Shown here: piece after piece, positions 24,626 to 33,023 of the stretch
Layout: each line of letters begins with the position of its first letter
How positions within the stretch are numbered: position 1 is the stretch's first letter
Program-made: the position numbers and the translations under genes
Assembly: GCA_001304155.1 (NCBI GenBank)
Contig: LJUX01000031.1
Span: 1 to 33,023 of the forward strand
Source: a candidate division Zixibacteria bacterium SM23_73_3
GTDB taxonomy: Bacteria > Zixibacteria > MSB-5A5 > SM1-73
Reading direction: 5' to 3'
DNA length: 33,023 nucleotides
Notes under the pieces: generated by a model
Database searches by the model: none
What the model was told of the DNA's origin: nothing
Seen by the model: the letters and a program-made list of their open reading frames with translations, nothing else

Positions 24626-25369
24626 TTATAACCTTCCGAATCTTCTTTCTCGGTTTTGATAGTTCCAGATGGCCTCATAAAAATGCTTAGTTGAGAAATT
24701 GGGCCACAAAATGTCGGTGATGTAAAGTTCGGTATAGGAGGTTTGCCACAAAAGGAAGTTGGATATGCGCATCTCTCCGGAGGTGCGGATAAGCAGGTCC
24801 GGGTCGGGAAGGTCTTTGGTGTAAAGATAATGAGAGAATTTTTCCTCTCCCAACTGTTCAGGATTCAGTCTCCCCCGTTTTACATCACTTGCGATCTCTT
24901 TTACCGCATCCAATATCTCGGTTCTGCCCCCATAATTCAAAGCTAAGTTCAAAATCAAGCCGGTGTTATTTTTTGTTCTTTTCATTGCTTTTTGTAATAT
25001 CTCTCTTCTGCGGAGAGAGAGCTCCTCTATTCTTCCAGTGGTGATCAATTTCACGTTATTTTCGTCCAGCTCATTTAGCTCTCTTTTCGTGGTCTCGTAT
25101 AAAAGCTTCATTATGGCTGACACTTCACTTTTTGGCCTTTTCCAGTTTTCCTGGGAGAAGGTGAAGAGGGTCAAAACGGATATCCCCAGATCGCCGGCGG
25201 CTTTTACGATTCTTTTCACCGCTTTTACTCCCGCTTTATGACCAGCGATTCGAGGTAATCCCCTTTTTTTAGCCCATCTTCCATTCCCATCCATGATGAT
25301 AGCTACGTGAGCGGGCAGATTTCTCTTCTTCAAAATCCTTTCTTTGAGATTGGACGTCTCTTTCGACAA
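24626..25369 (-). CDS. uppS: Isoprenyl transferase (undecaprenyl diphosphate synthase)
   Basis: A 247-aa cis-prenyltransferase. The catalytic and substrate-binding motifs are intact: HVAIIMDGNGRWAKKRGLPR (with the magnesium-binding Asp), FSQENWKRP, and RTSGEMRISNFLLWQTSYTE. It condenses isopentenyl diphosphate units to form the undecaprenyl carrier for peptidoglycan and surface polysaccharides. The start is TTG (25369), preceded by a GAGGTGAGG ribosome site; no in-frame ATG offers a better start before the first motif. It lies 61 bp after frr and 99 bp before cdsA, the conserved gene order. Confidence 0.95.
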   Translation of the reverse strand: MSKETSNLKERILKKRNLPAHVAIIMDGNGRWAKKRGLPRIAGHKAGVKAVKRIVKAAGDLGISVLTLFTFSQENWKRPKSEVSAIMKLLYETTKRELNELDENNVKLITTGRIEELSLRRREILQKAMKRTKNNTGLILNLALNYGGRTEILDAVKEIASDVKRGRLNPEQLGEEKFSHYLYTKDLPDPDLLIRTSGEMRISNFLLWQTSYTELYITDILWPNFSTKHFYEAIWNYQNRERRFGRL

Positions 25370-25430
25370 TTTACCTCACCTCACAAAATCCGCAAGATAT
25401 CAAAAGCAAAAACAAAGAGGTAGCCTCATT

Positions 25431-25991
25431 TTAAATCTCCATTATCTCCTGCTCTTTTTTCTTCAGCGTCTCTTCTATCTTCTCTATATGTTCATTTGTG
25501 ATCTCCTGCACACGTTCCTGTCCTTTTCGGGATTCATCTTCTGAGATCTCTTTGTCTTTTTCTGCATTTTTAAAAGCGTCGTTGGAATCACGCCTTATAT
25601 TTCTTATGGCTATCTTTCCCTCCTCCGCTACCTTTTTCACCAGCTTGACTAAATCCTTTCGTCGTTCTTCGGTTAACGGAGGTATGGGAAGCCGGACCAC
25701 GTTGGGGTCGCTTTGTGGGTTGAGCCCCAGATCTGATTTTTGAATAGCTTTGACGATTTCCGGAATCAATTTCTTCTCCCATGGTTGAATCACCAGAAGC
25801 CGAGCATCTGGAACGGATATGTTTGCCACCTGAGATAAATGAGTCATGGTGCCATAATAATCCACCCTGATCCCTTCCAGAAGGGAAGTGGTGGCTTTCC
25901 CGGTGCGAATGGAGGCAAATTCCTTTCTTATCGTCTCCACCGCCTTTTCCATCCTCTCCTCCGTGTCTCTGTGAATTTTTTTTACCGTCAT
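25431..25991 (-). CDS. frr: Ribosome recycling factor
   Basis: A 186-aa protein of standard length. Typical segments are RTGKATTSLLEGIRVDYYGT, LLVIQPWEKKLIPEIVKAIQ, SDLGLNPQSDPNVVRLPIPP and IRRDSNDAFKNAEKDKEISE. With EF-G it splits post-termination ribosomes into subunits. The ATG has GGAGGGAGGAG immediately upstream, one of the strongest ribosome sites in the window. It is 122 bp downstream of pyrH in the ribosomal-translation cluster. Confidence 0.97.
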   Translation of the reverse strand: MTVKKIHRDTEERMEKAVETIRKEFASIRTGKATTSLLEGIRVDYYGTMTHLSQVANISVPDARLLVIQPWEKKLIPEIVKAIQKSDLGLNPQSDPNVVRLPIPPLTEERRKDLVKLVKKVAEEGKIAIRNIRRDSNDAFKNAEKDKEISEDESRKGQERVQEITNEHIEKIEETLKKKEQEIMEI

Positions 25992-26113
25992 CTCCTCCCT
26001 CCTTTTTTACACTTGAATGAACATCCCTAAATCTGACTTAGTGTTTTTCTTATGTCTTGCCGATATTTGTGATTCCCGCCACAATGCGTGAGGTGAAAAC
26101 ACTGGTTCTTTTT

Positions 26114-26830
26114 TCATTCACTAACCTTGGTCCCGATCTTCTCTCCCAAAAGAATCCTTTTCAAATTCCCCTCCTTCAGCAGATTGAACACGATGATGGG
26201 GAGCTTATTCTCCATGCACAGCGAGATTGCCGTTAAGTCCATCACCTTTAATTTTCGGTTCAGCACCTCCATATAAGAAAGGGTGTCGAACATCTGGGCG
26301 GAGGAGTTTTTCATCGGGTCGTCATCATAAACTCCATCCACTTTGGTTCCTTTCATTACCACATCCGCCCCTATCTCAGTGGCTCTAAGGGCCGCGGTGG
26401 TATCGGTGGTGAAATAGGAATTTCCAGTTCCCCCAGCCAGGATGATCACACTTCCTCTCTTTAAATGTCTTAAAGCTTCCCTTTTCATATACGGCTGTGT
26501 TAAGGTGTCTATGTGAATGGCGCTCATCACTTGAGCGGAAAGCCCGAAATTCTCCAAGCTATCTTGAAGAGCCAGGGAGTTTATGATGGTGGCAAGCATC
26601 CCCATGTAGTCGGCTGATACCCGATCGATCGCACCCAGACTGGATATCTGTCCGCGGATGATATTGCCTCCGCCTACCACCGTAGCTAACTGCACCCCCA
26701 AGTCTTTTGCGGATTTGATCTCCTTTGAAAGGAAAGCAATTGCATCAGGGTCGATGACACCTTCTTTATCTCTGGCTAATGACTCACCAGATATCTTTAG
26801 AAGTATCCTTTTATAAATAGGAGTGCCCAC
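26114..26830 (-). CDS. pyrH: Uridylate kinase (UMP kinase)
   Basis: A 238-aa amino-acid-kinase-fold enzyme. It has KISGESLA at the start, the glycine-rich TVVGGGNIIRG, GGTGNSYFTTDTTAALRA and the KGTKVDGVYDDDP phosphate-binding segment. It phosphorylates UMP to UDP for nucleotide and cell-wall precursor synthesis. The listed start is GTG (26830) with no evident Shine-Dalgarno sequence, yet the length matches the family and there is no alternative before KRILLKISGE. It lies 103 bp after tsf. Confidence 0.96.
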   Translation of the reverse strand: MGTPIYKRILLKISGESLARDKEGVIDPDAIAFLSKEIKSAKDLGVQLATVVGGGNIIRGQISSLGAIDRVSADYMGMLATIINSLALQDSLENFGLSAQVMSAIHIDTLTQPYMKREALRHLKRGSVIILAGGTGNSYFTTDTTAALRATEIGADVVMKGTKVDGVYDDDPMKNSSAQMFDTLSYMEVLNRKLKVMDLTAISLCMENKLPIIVFNLLKEGNLKRILLGEKIGTKVSE

Positions 26831-29871: not shown

Positions 29872-31707
29872 TCAGGTCTTGTCTACAAATAGCTGATTCC
29901 ATAGCTCAAAGGTCAGAATTGTTCCCAGTTGTGAAGCTAAATTCTGTTTTCCAGAAAGATGCCTTTCAACTAATCTTTTAACATAATCGGGATTAAAATA
30001 ACCCCGGCTTAGAGATTTTTCATTTAAGATATTCAAAATCAAAAAGTCCTTGAGCTCATTCCGCATCCAATTATCATAATCTGAGTATCTACGTTTATCC
30101 ATCTTCGAATGGAGAATTTTTTCTTTCAACTTTTCTTTTGTTTTTCCGAACAAGATCCGGGGTAAACTGGAGCTGACCGGTATGCCAGTTCTTTGATAGG
30201 GAATCGAACCTAAAGGTGGAAATTTCTCAGTCAACAGACGACGATGAAAAATAGCCAGCGCTTTCTGTTTGGGAGGTATGGTTGAAACAAAATCTACCAG
30301 ATCATAATCACAAAAAGGAACCCTATATTCCACCAGGTTGTTGTCGAGCAAAAGGCCGTATAGAAACGATTTTGGAGCTTGTTCTCTGAAGCGGAAATGA
30401 TGAAATTTGTTAAAGGGAGAATCAAAGGGACAATCATTCATTAATTTCACAAAAGATTGAAAGGCGGAATCTTTTATCTGTGAATAGTATTTGGTTTGAA
30501 AAAGAGATGCCAGTTCACTCTCAGTAAAAGGATGGTTGATACGGTGAAAAAGTCTGCTAATCCAATTCTTTGAGTCCCTCTGAAACAATAATTGGGCGTT
30601 TGTCAGAGACAGAAACCCAAAAAGTTCCCCTCCCAAAAAGCCGTTTAGCACTACTGAAGCCTGCTTGCGGATCTCGGGTATAAATTCTATTCCATGAAAG
30701 TTTATACAACTGTTCATTCCCTCAGTTAACCAGACTCCCAACTTAGCCCACCTTTTCAGGAAATCTGGGGAAAGCTCAAGGAAGCGATTTGCCATGCCTA
30801 AGGTATTGGCAATTTCTCTTGCCAGCTTTTTGTCTGAACAATTTGCAATGCCGAAGGTAAAGGTGGGGATTTTATGTCCCAATTTGGCAACAGCTCCTAA
30901 CAGCGTTCTGGAATCAAGCCCGCCGCTTAAGGATAAGATCTTGGGGATATCGTCTCTGATTTGTCTTTGCACCGCCTGTTTTACCAAGAAGTGCGTCCTT
31001 TCAATGGATTCCTTTGCATTAAACTCCTTGCCCTCCTCTTTCAGATTAAGAGCCCAATACGATTTTATATTGAGATTGCCAGCTTTAAACACCACCATAG
31101 AAGCCGGTCGCAAAATCTTGATCTGCTTGAGCAGAGTCCGGTCCTGCACAACAAAGTTAAGGCTGAAGAACTCCGCCATTCCTTGCAGATCTATATCCTT
31201 TTTGACCTGCGAGAAGGTCAGGATGGATTTCATTTCAGAGGCAAAGACGAAAAGACGGTCTTGCCAAAAATAGTACAAAGGTCTTAAGCCGTATCTGTCA
31301 TTGGCGATAGTCAGCGTTTTCTCCCTGGAGTTCCATAGTGCCAACACAAAGGACCCGTTGAGTTTTTTCATAATTTCAATACCGTAAACATCTATTAGAT
31401 TTAGAACCGAAAGAGCGCGGTTGGTTGGTTCAGAGGGATGAATTTTCTGCAGGGTCCACAGAGGATCATCCGGATAATTATACATCTCCCCATACATAAC
31501 CAGGCACAGGGATTTGTCGCGGTTGAAGACTGGTTGGTGATAAGGGTCGATTACTCCTAAGGTAGCCTTGCCTAAGGCCATGGGCTTTTGGTGGAATTGA
31601 GCCACCTTATACCATGGTTCATGCTTCATCAAAGATAGCATGCCAGCCATTTTTTCTTCTAAGTCAAATTTTCCTTCAAGATCAACTATTCCGGCGATTC
31701 CAGGCAA
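29872..31707 (-). CDS. Asparagine synthetase-like protein with inactive glutaminase domain
   Basis: A 611-aa AsnB-type protein. The N-terminal Ntn-hydrolase-like domain begins MPGIAGIVD, so the nucleophile Cys2 of glutamine-dependent enzymes is replaced by Pro. Other glutamine-binding positions also look lost (MYGEMYN instead of NGEIYN; the RLxIxD arginine is absent). The C-terminal synthetase domain retains the ATP-pyrophosphatase loop SGGLDSRTLL at 261-270 and DNNLVEYRVPFCDYDLVDF. It probably activates a carboxylate by adenylation and uses ammonia or another nucleophile, as in beta-lactam synthetase or polysaccharide-linked homologues. The start is TTG with AAGGAAG upstream. Neighbours do not reveal a substrate. 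Confidence 0.85.
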   Translation of the reverse strand: MPGIAGIVDLEGKFDLEEKMAGMLSLMKHEPWYKVAQFHQKPMALGKATLGVIDPYHQPVFNRDKSLCLVMYGEMYNYPDDPLWTLQKIHPSEPTNRALSVLNLIDVYGIEIMKKLNGSFVLALWNSREKTLTIANDRYGLRPLYYFWQDRLFVFASEMKSILTFSQVKKDIDLQGMAEFFSLNFVVQDRTLLKQIKILRPASMVVFKAGNLNIKSYWALNLKEEGKEFNAKESIERTHFLVKQAVQRQIRDDIPKILSLSGGLDSRTLLGAVAKLGHKIPTFTFGIANCSDKKLAREIANTLGMANRFLELSPDFLKRWAKLGVWLTEGMNSCINFHGIEFIPEIRKQASVVLNGFLGGELFGFLSLTNAQLLFQRDSKNWISRLFHRINHPFTESELASLFQTKYYSQIKDSAFQSFVKLMNDCPFDSPFNKFHHFRFREQAPKSFLYGLLLDNNLVEYRVPFCDYDLVDFVSTIPPKQKALAIFHRRLLTEKFPPLGSIPYQRTGIPVSSSLPRILFGKTKEKLKEKILHSKMDKRRYSDYDNWMRNELKDFLILNILNEKSLSRGYFNPDYVKRLVERHLSGKQNLASQLGTILTFELWNQLFVDKT

Positions 31708-31828: not shown

Positions 31829-32224
31829 CTAATCAGACGATGCTGAACTCGTATCCAGAATGATAGGTAAGCTATCTTTTGCCATGGTCTTTAGCATGTA
31901 TTGGGCATCATCTGCCAGATCACACTCCGGATATTTCTCAATCATCATTCTGTAATTCTCTCTTGCCTTTTTGTAATCCTTTAAATTCTCTGAATAAACA
32001 AAGCCAATCAAAAATTGTGCCTTATAAGCACGTGGGCTATCCGGGTATAGCTTCAGAATCTCCTTGTAGATCTTTATGGCAGATTGAAAATCCCCTTTTT
32101 CTGAATAGTCCTGAGCTTCAGTATAAAGCTCCTCTTCGGTTTTTTTACTGTTGGAGCCAGAGGAGCAGGAGAAAGTCAAAACACCGACAGCCAAAATTAC
32201 AACAAAGGTTGCTATGTTCTTCAA
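31829..32224 (-). CDS. TPR lipoprotein (BamD/YbgF-like)
   Basis: A 131-aa protein with a lipoprotein signal ending LTFSC (lipobox cysteine at residue 20), a Ser/Asn-rich linker and then two to three TPR-like helical pairs (AQDYSEKGDFQSAIKIYKEI, FVYSENLKDYKKARENYRMM). The spacing and the phrase YPDSPRAYKAQFLIGFVY resemble BamD or the YbgF/CpoB C-terminal TPR region, which work in outer-membrane assembly or cell-envelope constriction. The protein is shorter than BamD, so the role is uncertain. The start is TTG with AGGAGG nine bases upstream. It lies 36 bp after the clpB fragment, probably one transcript. Confidence 0.78.
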   Translation of the reverse strand: MKNIATFVVILAVGVLTFSCSSGSNSKKTEEELYTEAQDYSEKGDFQSAIKIYKEILKLYPDSPRAYKAQFLIGFVYSENLKDYKKARENYRMMIEKYPECDLADDAQYMLKTMAKDSLPIILDTSSASSD

Positions 32225-32260: not shown

Positions 32261-32770
32261 TCAATTTTTTTTCACAAAAACTACCTGGTCGTCTTTGACA
32301 TCGACTTTTATTTTGTCCTCAGGCTTGAATTTCCCTTTCAAAATCTCATTGGCCAAAGGCTGGATGATTAGCTTCTGTATCATTCTTTTCAGAGGCCTGG
32401 CTCCAAAAGCTGGGTCAAACCCCGCCTTAGCCAAATACTCTTTTGCTTTATCAGTCAGGCTTGCGTTTATTTTTTGCTCGGCTAATCTTAGGTTGACCTC
32501 TTTAAACTGCAAATCGACGATATTTTTTATGTCCTCAAAAGATATTGAATGAAACACTATTACTTCATCTATACGATTCAAAAACTCAGGTCTTAGGGAT
32601 TTTCGCAAAAGATTTAACACCTGCGAACTCATTTCATGATATATTTGGTCTTCATTTTCTGAGGTTATGGTTCGGGACATTTGCGCTATCAAGGAAGCCC
32701 CGATATTAGAGGTCATTATCAAGATGGCGTTCTTGAAGCTGACCGTTCTTCCCTGATTATCGGTAAGCCT
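32261..32770 (-). pseudogene. clpB: 3' fragment of clpB (disaggregase ClpB), interrupted
   Basis: 169 codons match the C-terminal end of ClpB/Hsp104. RLTDNQGRTVSFKNAILIMT leads into sensor 1 (TSNIG), the arginine-finger region RPEFLNRIDE, sensor 2 GARPLKR, and the D2-small domain to the stop. In intact ClpB the first segment follows DEIEKAH...LLQVLDDG. Here the homology ends exactly at the Arg of DDGRLTD, and the upstream in-frame codons (to 32839, MPWRQAVKACLREPG) are unrelated translated repeat. The Walker A and B motifs of the second ATPase are therefore absent from this reading frame. Either the gene is broken by an insertion or the junction is an assembly chimera. The downstream lipoprotein gene is intact. 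Confidence 0.75.
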
Positions 32771-33023
32771 GTCGAACCTTGTGGCTGTCCGCGGACCTGG
32801 TTCGCGTAGGCAAGCCTTCACGGCTTGGCGCCAAGGCATGAAGCCTCGGCTACGCGCTAATTCGACCTAATTTTGAATTTTGAATTGCAATTTTGCATTT
32901 TGCTTTTTGGTCTTTGAATTTACGTATGGTTTGGCACCGAGGCATGAAGCCTCGGCTACGCTCTTTCTGGAATTCAAGCCCGCCTTGGTGGGATCTGCGA
33001 CTTCAGCTTGACCAACGGTTCAC
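32771..33023. other. Repeat-rich non-coding sequence replacing the 5' part of clpB
   Basis: About 250 bp up to the window edge with no ORF of merit. It contains a GTCCGCGGAC palindrome, a caagcc-ttcac-ggcttg hairpin, two copies of a 31-nt palindromic unit, and a low-complexity ttttgaattttgaattgc stretch between them. Confidence 0.65.
32825..32961. repeat. Two copies of a 31-nt palindromic unit
   Basis: ttggcgccaaggcatgaagcctcggctacgc (32825-32855) and its copy at 32931-32961 differ at two positions and are 106 nt apart. The second contains the perfect hairpin ccgaggc-atga... with gcctcgg. The end gctacgc recalls the tagcgga/tccgcta arms of the element at 19894-19951. Confidence 0.65.

Follow-up and report, generated by a model that had tools for sequence, protein, structure and literature searches.

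A truncated clpB gene joined to dispersed repeats in a Zixibacteria genome and its counterparts within the order

Near one end of the analyzed contig, a clpB reading frame begins abruptly within a conserved motif, directly after repeat-rich DNA. This raises the question of whether the gene is truncated in the organism or was cut during assembly and, if the truncation is real, how it arose and whether related genomes share it. The window, i.e. the whole stretch of DNA analyzed, is the entire contig C60 (33,023 bp) of the MAG G000, which comprises 1.88 Mb in 90 contigs and is 82% complete. It was compared with relatives G001-G010, and the set for the order consists of 11 genomes, G002 among them.

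The clpB stub and its locus

A clpB 3′ stub of 169 codons, recognized by profile and ortholog matches, occupies positions 32261..32770 on the minus strand and runs from RLTD to the native stop codon. The frame 32770-32261 (-) matches positions 695-852 of the 853 positions of TIGR03346 (188 bits). It comprises Pfam AAA_2 from position 103 and a complete ClpB_D2-small; what remains is the final portion of the D2 large domain together with all of D2-small. Residue 1 of the stub is the R of DDGRLTD and is equivalent to residue 716 in G002, whose open frame has 888 residues. The break within this motif, previously described in a sequence-only reading of the contig, was thereby confirmed. Codons 1-715, the front four-fifths of the gene, are missing in the window. 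The stub shares 81% protein identity with G002, and 82% DNA identity over the first 102 codons. According to the ORF list, it is predicted to be the greater part of a 192-aa open frame (32261..32839, minus strand), whose ATG lies within the repeat and which continues in frame into the clpB codons.

An AAA+ protein that has lost the Walker A and B pairs of both rings is unable to work as a disaggregase. In a functional ClpB, each of the two AAA+ rings carries Walker A and B motifs; the window frame begins past the D2 Walker B region. Although its 169 codons are orthologous to the ClpB/Hsp100 disaggregases (TIGR03346), it lacks the Walker A and B motifs of either ATPase ring together with the N, D1 and middle domains. 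The predicted product cannot be a disaggregase, since both Walker A and B pairs are gone, and the frame is a remnant.

The gene directly downstream, at 31829..32224 (minus strand), encodes a TPR lipoprotein-like protein, as indicated by Pfam and synteny. The same gene comes next after clpB, or after what is left of it, in every relative examined here (G001, G002, G003, G006, G008, G009 and G010). In G002 a whole clpB frame precedes this same TPR gene, and the window stub is thus a truncation with respect to an intact ortholog at the equivalent locus. Upstream of clpB in G002 are prfB and a small zinc-finger-like gene without a Pfam match (‘UVR’), while the stub of G009 is preceded by dnaK, an rpoZ-like gene and a zinc-ribbon gene. 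The window also contains a whole asparagine-synthase-like gene (29872-31707), which lies between the TPR gene and rplM and was not seen in G002. G001 carries only a C-terminal remnant of this gene (residues 536-609; L060 2204-2425), which is another 3′ remnant at the clpB locus.

The joint and the repeats upstream of it

The 253 bp that lead from the joint to the end of the contig (32771..33023, minus strand) constitute a dispersed-repeat mosaic without ClpB similarity, in agreement with the at least 250 bp of repeats noted earlier. A search for further copies of this segment, suggested at the same time, found copies of its repeats on many G000 contigs. Within the mosaic, repeat comparison distinguished a hairpin-forming dispersed repeat, whose copy closest to the joint lies at 32803..32858 and whose second, partial copy lies at 32928..32964 (both minus strand). 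These 253 bp contain no transposase or similar gene, and no known RNA element was identified at the joint with Rfam.

In a motif search, positions 32762..32778 (minus strand), which overlap clpB codons, matched the dispersed repeat motif GGTTCGACARGCTYACC. With at most one mismatch, this motif is present in 12 copies in G000 (the joint counted) and 12 in G001, and the reversed-pattern control yielded 0 matches in both genomes at the same threshold. The repeat copy on contig C89, GGACAGCCACACGGTTCGACAAGCTCACCGTCCTGAG, agrees with the window as far as ACCG, with 3 mismatches, and the two part ways where clpB begins. At the equivalent site clpB reads GACGACGGTAGATTGACCGACAATCAG in G002, GATGACGGTAGACTCACAGACAATCAG in G003 and GATGACGGCAGGCTGACTGACAACCAG in G008. 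The bases at the joint are thus compatible with both parents over ~10-11 bp, (C)AGGCTTACCG (32761..32771, minus strand), an exact length of overlap that is deduced from the repeat copies and the intact relatives. The microhomology had originally been given as AGGCT; a sequence common to the repeat and clpB does exist, but its length was underestimated. That these ~10-11 bp appear assignable to either parent is as expected of short-homology recombination. Recombination at a short common sequence, also proposed earlier, is supported by the repeat copies and the clpB relatives.

The joint lies in repeats, 253 bp from the end of a contig of an incomplete MAG, which would suit an assembly chimera or strain mixture, with clpB intact in the organism or in part of the population and the contig following a wrong or minority repeat path. 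The stub would then be expected to evolve as an intact gene does, and this is the case (see the substitution patterns below). However, the ~10 bp common stretch is shorter than usual assembly overlaps, and the 26 G000 contig ends examined lie mostly in genes, with few in recognized repeats according to a partial repeat database. Moreover, the separately assembled congener G001, represented by one scaffold, has a clpB remnant that starts at the same codons as the window stub (GACAGGCTCATCGATAATCAG), and its upstream repeats match those before the window joint. When the segment between two GACAGGCTCA copies is looped out of G001, the alignment is continuous across the joint.

A composite of the hairpin and CAGGTCYGCGGRYAGCC stands upstream of the window joint, and twice immediately upstream of the G001 joint. 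Elsewhere in G000, G001, G002 and G003, parts of this composite were found, never the whole. Its limitation, among these four genomes, to the window and G001 joints is not what would be expected of a chance chimera. Because the joint recurs in G001 behind repeats that match those of the window, the misassembly considered in the sequence-only reading is unlikely, and the comparison suggests that the window joint is probably real. Taken together with a possible strain mixture, an artefactual origin seems to us unlikely.

The search for the missing 5′ part that had been suggested earlier detected no Clp_N domain, nor any other fragment of the N-terminal, D1 or middle domains of ClpB, on any contig of the 82% complete MAG. 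The sole AAA_lid_9 match in G000 belongs to ClpC on contig C39. This ClpC gene (24879-26282) is also severed by a contig end, so that the MAG has neither of its two large Hsp100 genes in full. The missing clpB 5′ part is weak evidence, since the MAG, 82% complete, is also without dnaK, the nearest match being an MreB-like protein of the HSP70 fold. As dnaK is present in all six relatives tested, several of which have two or three copies, its absence from G000 is probably an assembly gap, perhaps caused by the collapsing of near-identical copies.

The prfB contig of G000, C27, stops within the ‘UVR’ gene, which precedes clpB in G002, and an unassembled clpB 5′ end could therefore lie there. This contig end would fit the insertion of a repeat-bearing or mobile segment within clpB, with the 5′ part beyond the contig end, as would a Y1 transposase gene that adjoins the stub of G010. 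Yet none of the G000 contigs carries the 5′ part and the window has no transposase near the joint. Furthermore, the gene upstream of the G001 joint, beyond an N run, encodes a subtilase and not ClpB, while the prfB-UVR locus of that genome lies 1.4 Mb away. Beside prfB-UVR, comparisons with the clpB 5′ region gave chance-level matches in G000, G001 and G003. Plain insertion, another of the early proposals, is thus less likely, and we consider it very improbable. An intein, an intron and a programmed split gene were also considered and were ruled out, as the search of the 82% complete genome gave no 5′ partner and the endpoints vary among relatives.

Substitution patterns and the number of losses

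The lineage-specific changes of the window, G001 and G002 were compared over 102 alignable codons, with a neutral expectation of 76% nonsynonymous changes. G001 has 29 nonsynonymous and 18 synonymous changes of its own, which is near neutral, and its stub has decayed, with a stop codon and a lost frame towards the end. The window has 6 nonsynonymous and 16 synonymous changes, similar to the 5 and 13, respectively, of the intact G002 gene, and neutral evolution of the window stub is rejected (P = 2e-6). Substitutions of the type expected of a remnant are hence found in the G001 stub only. These counts indicate that the G001 stub is old and drifting, while coding constraint acted on the window stub during the greater part of the time since the split. 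The constraint implies either a recent, independent loss at the same site or a stub that is still selected. A single old loss common to the window and G001, with no later selection, is rejected on the basis of the constrained substitutions in the window stub.

One ancestral deletion in G000 and G001, followed by decay of the stub in G001 and its selection in G000 as a short ClpB-derived protein, would explain the same joint and the matching upstream repeats in both genomes, as well as the open 192-aa frame with its ATG and coding-type substitutions. This would nevertheless require selection on a stub that has no nucleotide-binding Walker motifs and is dead in G001; in addition, a three-species tree based on three proteins does not clearly place G000 and G001 as sisters (54% bootstrap). 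We regard this ancestral deletion as rather unlikely. We prefer a recent, independent loss in the window lineage, because both lineages would have possessed the two ingredients, namely the repeat upstream and the clpB codons that match it.

The whole-protein ClpB query, which was run on the order's genomes alone, detected a whole clpB in one of the 11 genomes (G002). In G003 and G008 the gene is severed by contig ends, and in G004, G005 (98% complete) and G007 none was found with this query. Stubs with differing endpoints were identified in three relatives belonging to another genus, g4. G009 has kept clpB from immediately past the same motif, fused to a different repeat at CAGGGTCGCGCT, while G010 carries an in-frame internal deletion that joins the first ~18 residues to the last ~59, and in G006 ~45-50 residues are left, joined to a repeat. 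The portions of the G001 and G009 matches that precede residue 716 were judged to be chance extensions into repeats. As the endpoints of the g4 stubs differ, these are separate events. Over the last 55 codons, 13 synonymous but just 2 nonsynonymous changes separate G009 from G010, so the g4 losses also look recent. The view that the stubs (192 aa in the window, 169 aa in G009 and 77 aa in G010) are alive, i.e. open, with coding-type substitutions, selected and encoding short ClpB-derived proteins, appears quite improbable.

Just upstream of the G010 stub, a gene for a Y1 (IS200-like) transposase of 163 aa was found (L061 2791-3282), flanked by dispersed repeat copies; this transposase may be a RAYT linked to the dispersed repeats. 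The system resembles REP-like palindromes with Y1 (RAYT-type) transposases in its short dispersed hairpin repeats and in this Y1 gene beside a stub, but differs in that no transposase gene lies in the 253 bp at the window joint. In G006, a gene with a SEC-C-like CPCGSGKKYKYCHG terminal motif, recognized by eye (L062, minus strand, ~4070-3130), stands between the upstream genes and the clpB stub.

Beyond the order, the ClpB/ClpC survey used a C-terminus query, which is blind to stubs that retain the N-terminus only; the majority of the ClpB or ClpC frames that it found have 815-905 aa, and some of these genomes carry Hsp100 frames that are less closely related and have 357-411 aa.

Origin and meaning of the truncation

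We put at roughly 60% the probability that the window carries an orthologous clpB 3′ stub at a real joint, formed by ~10-bp recombination in a recent event separate from the older G001 loss at the same site. A dispersed repeat upstream and the RLT(D) codons within clpB would have recombined at the sequence common to them, and codons 1-715 would have been removed or separated. The window event would be one of several clpB losses in the order. Several points count against this explanation. Deletions that arose twice, independently, at one endpoint require coincidence or a hot spot, and contig ends of the G000 assembly do not usually lie in repeat-rich DNA. The joint is close to a contig end in an incomplete MAG that lacks dnaK, and the C27 end could hide the 5′ part of the gene.

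Short-homology deletion at dispersed repeats is a known route to pseudogenes. The present case resembles it in the bi-parental joint sequence, in the repeat on one side and the 3′ remnant on the other, and in the decay seen in G001. It differs in that G000 and G001 are hit at the same few codons of a conserved AAA+ motif, and G009 at codons slightly further downstream, and in that decay of the window stub has yet to set in. In the literature on clpB loss or repeat-mediated deletion, we found nothing matching this pattern of stubs at repeats. For the order as a whole, the best reading is that short-homology deletions or rearrangements have recurred at dispersed repeats and led to convergent clpB loss. 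The clpB truncation is most likely a real gene loss of an ordinary type, mildly interesting for the recurrence of its breakpoint, and does not look like a novel class of element.

In many bacteria, ClpB contributes to stress tolerance (PMC8100447). Its loss should be costly unless other chaperones suffice. The loss of ClpB suggested at the outset holds as a pattern in the order, but for the window genome proof would require reads. The locus also illustrates how comparison with relatives can test a doubtful joint near the end of a contig, which need not simply be dismissed. If the favored explanation is right, this uncultured order is repeatedly losing the general disaggregase ClpB, partly very recently, with breakpoints set by dispersed repeats. 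It would then offer a small natural example of repeats steering gene loss, and its sister genomes would form a set for studying the cost of ClpB loss.
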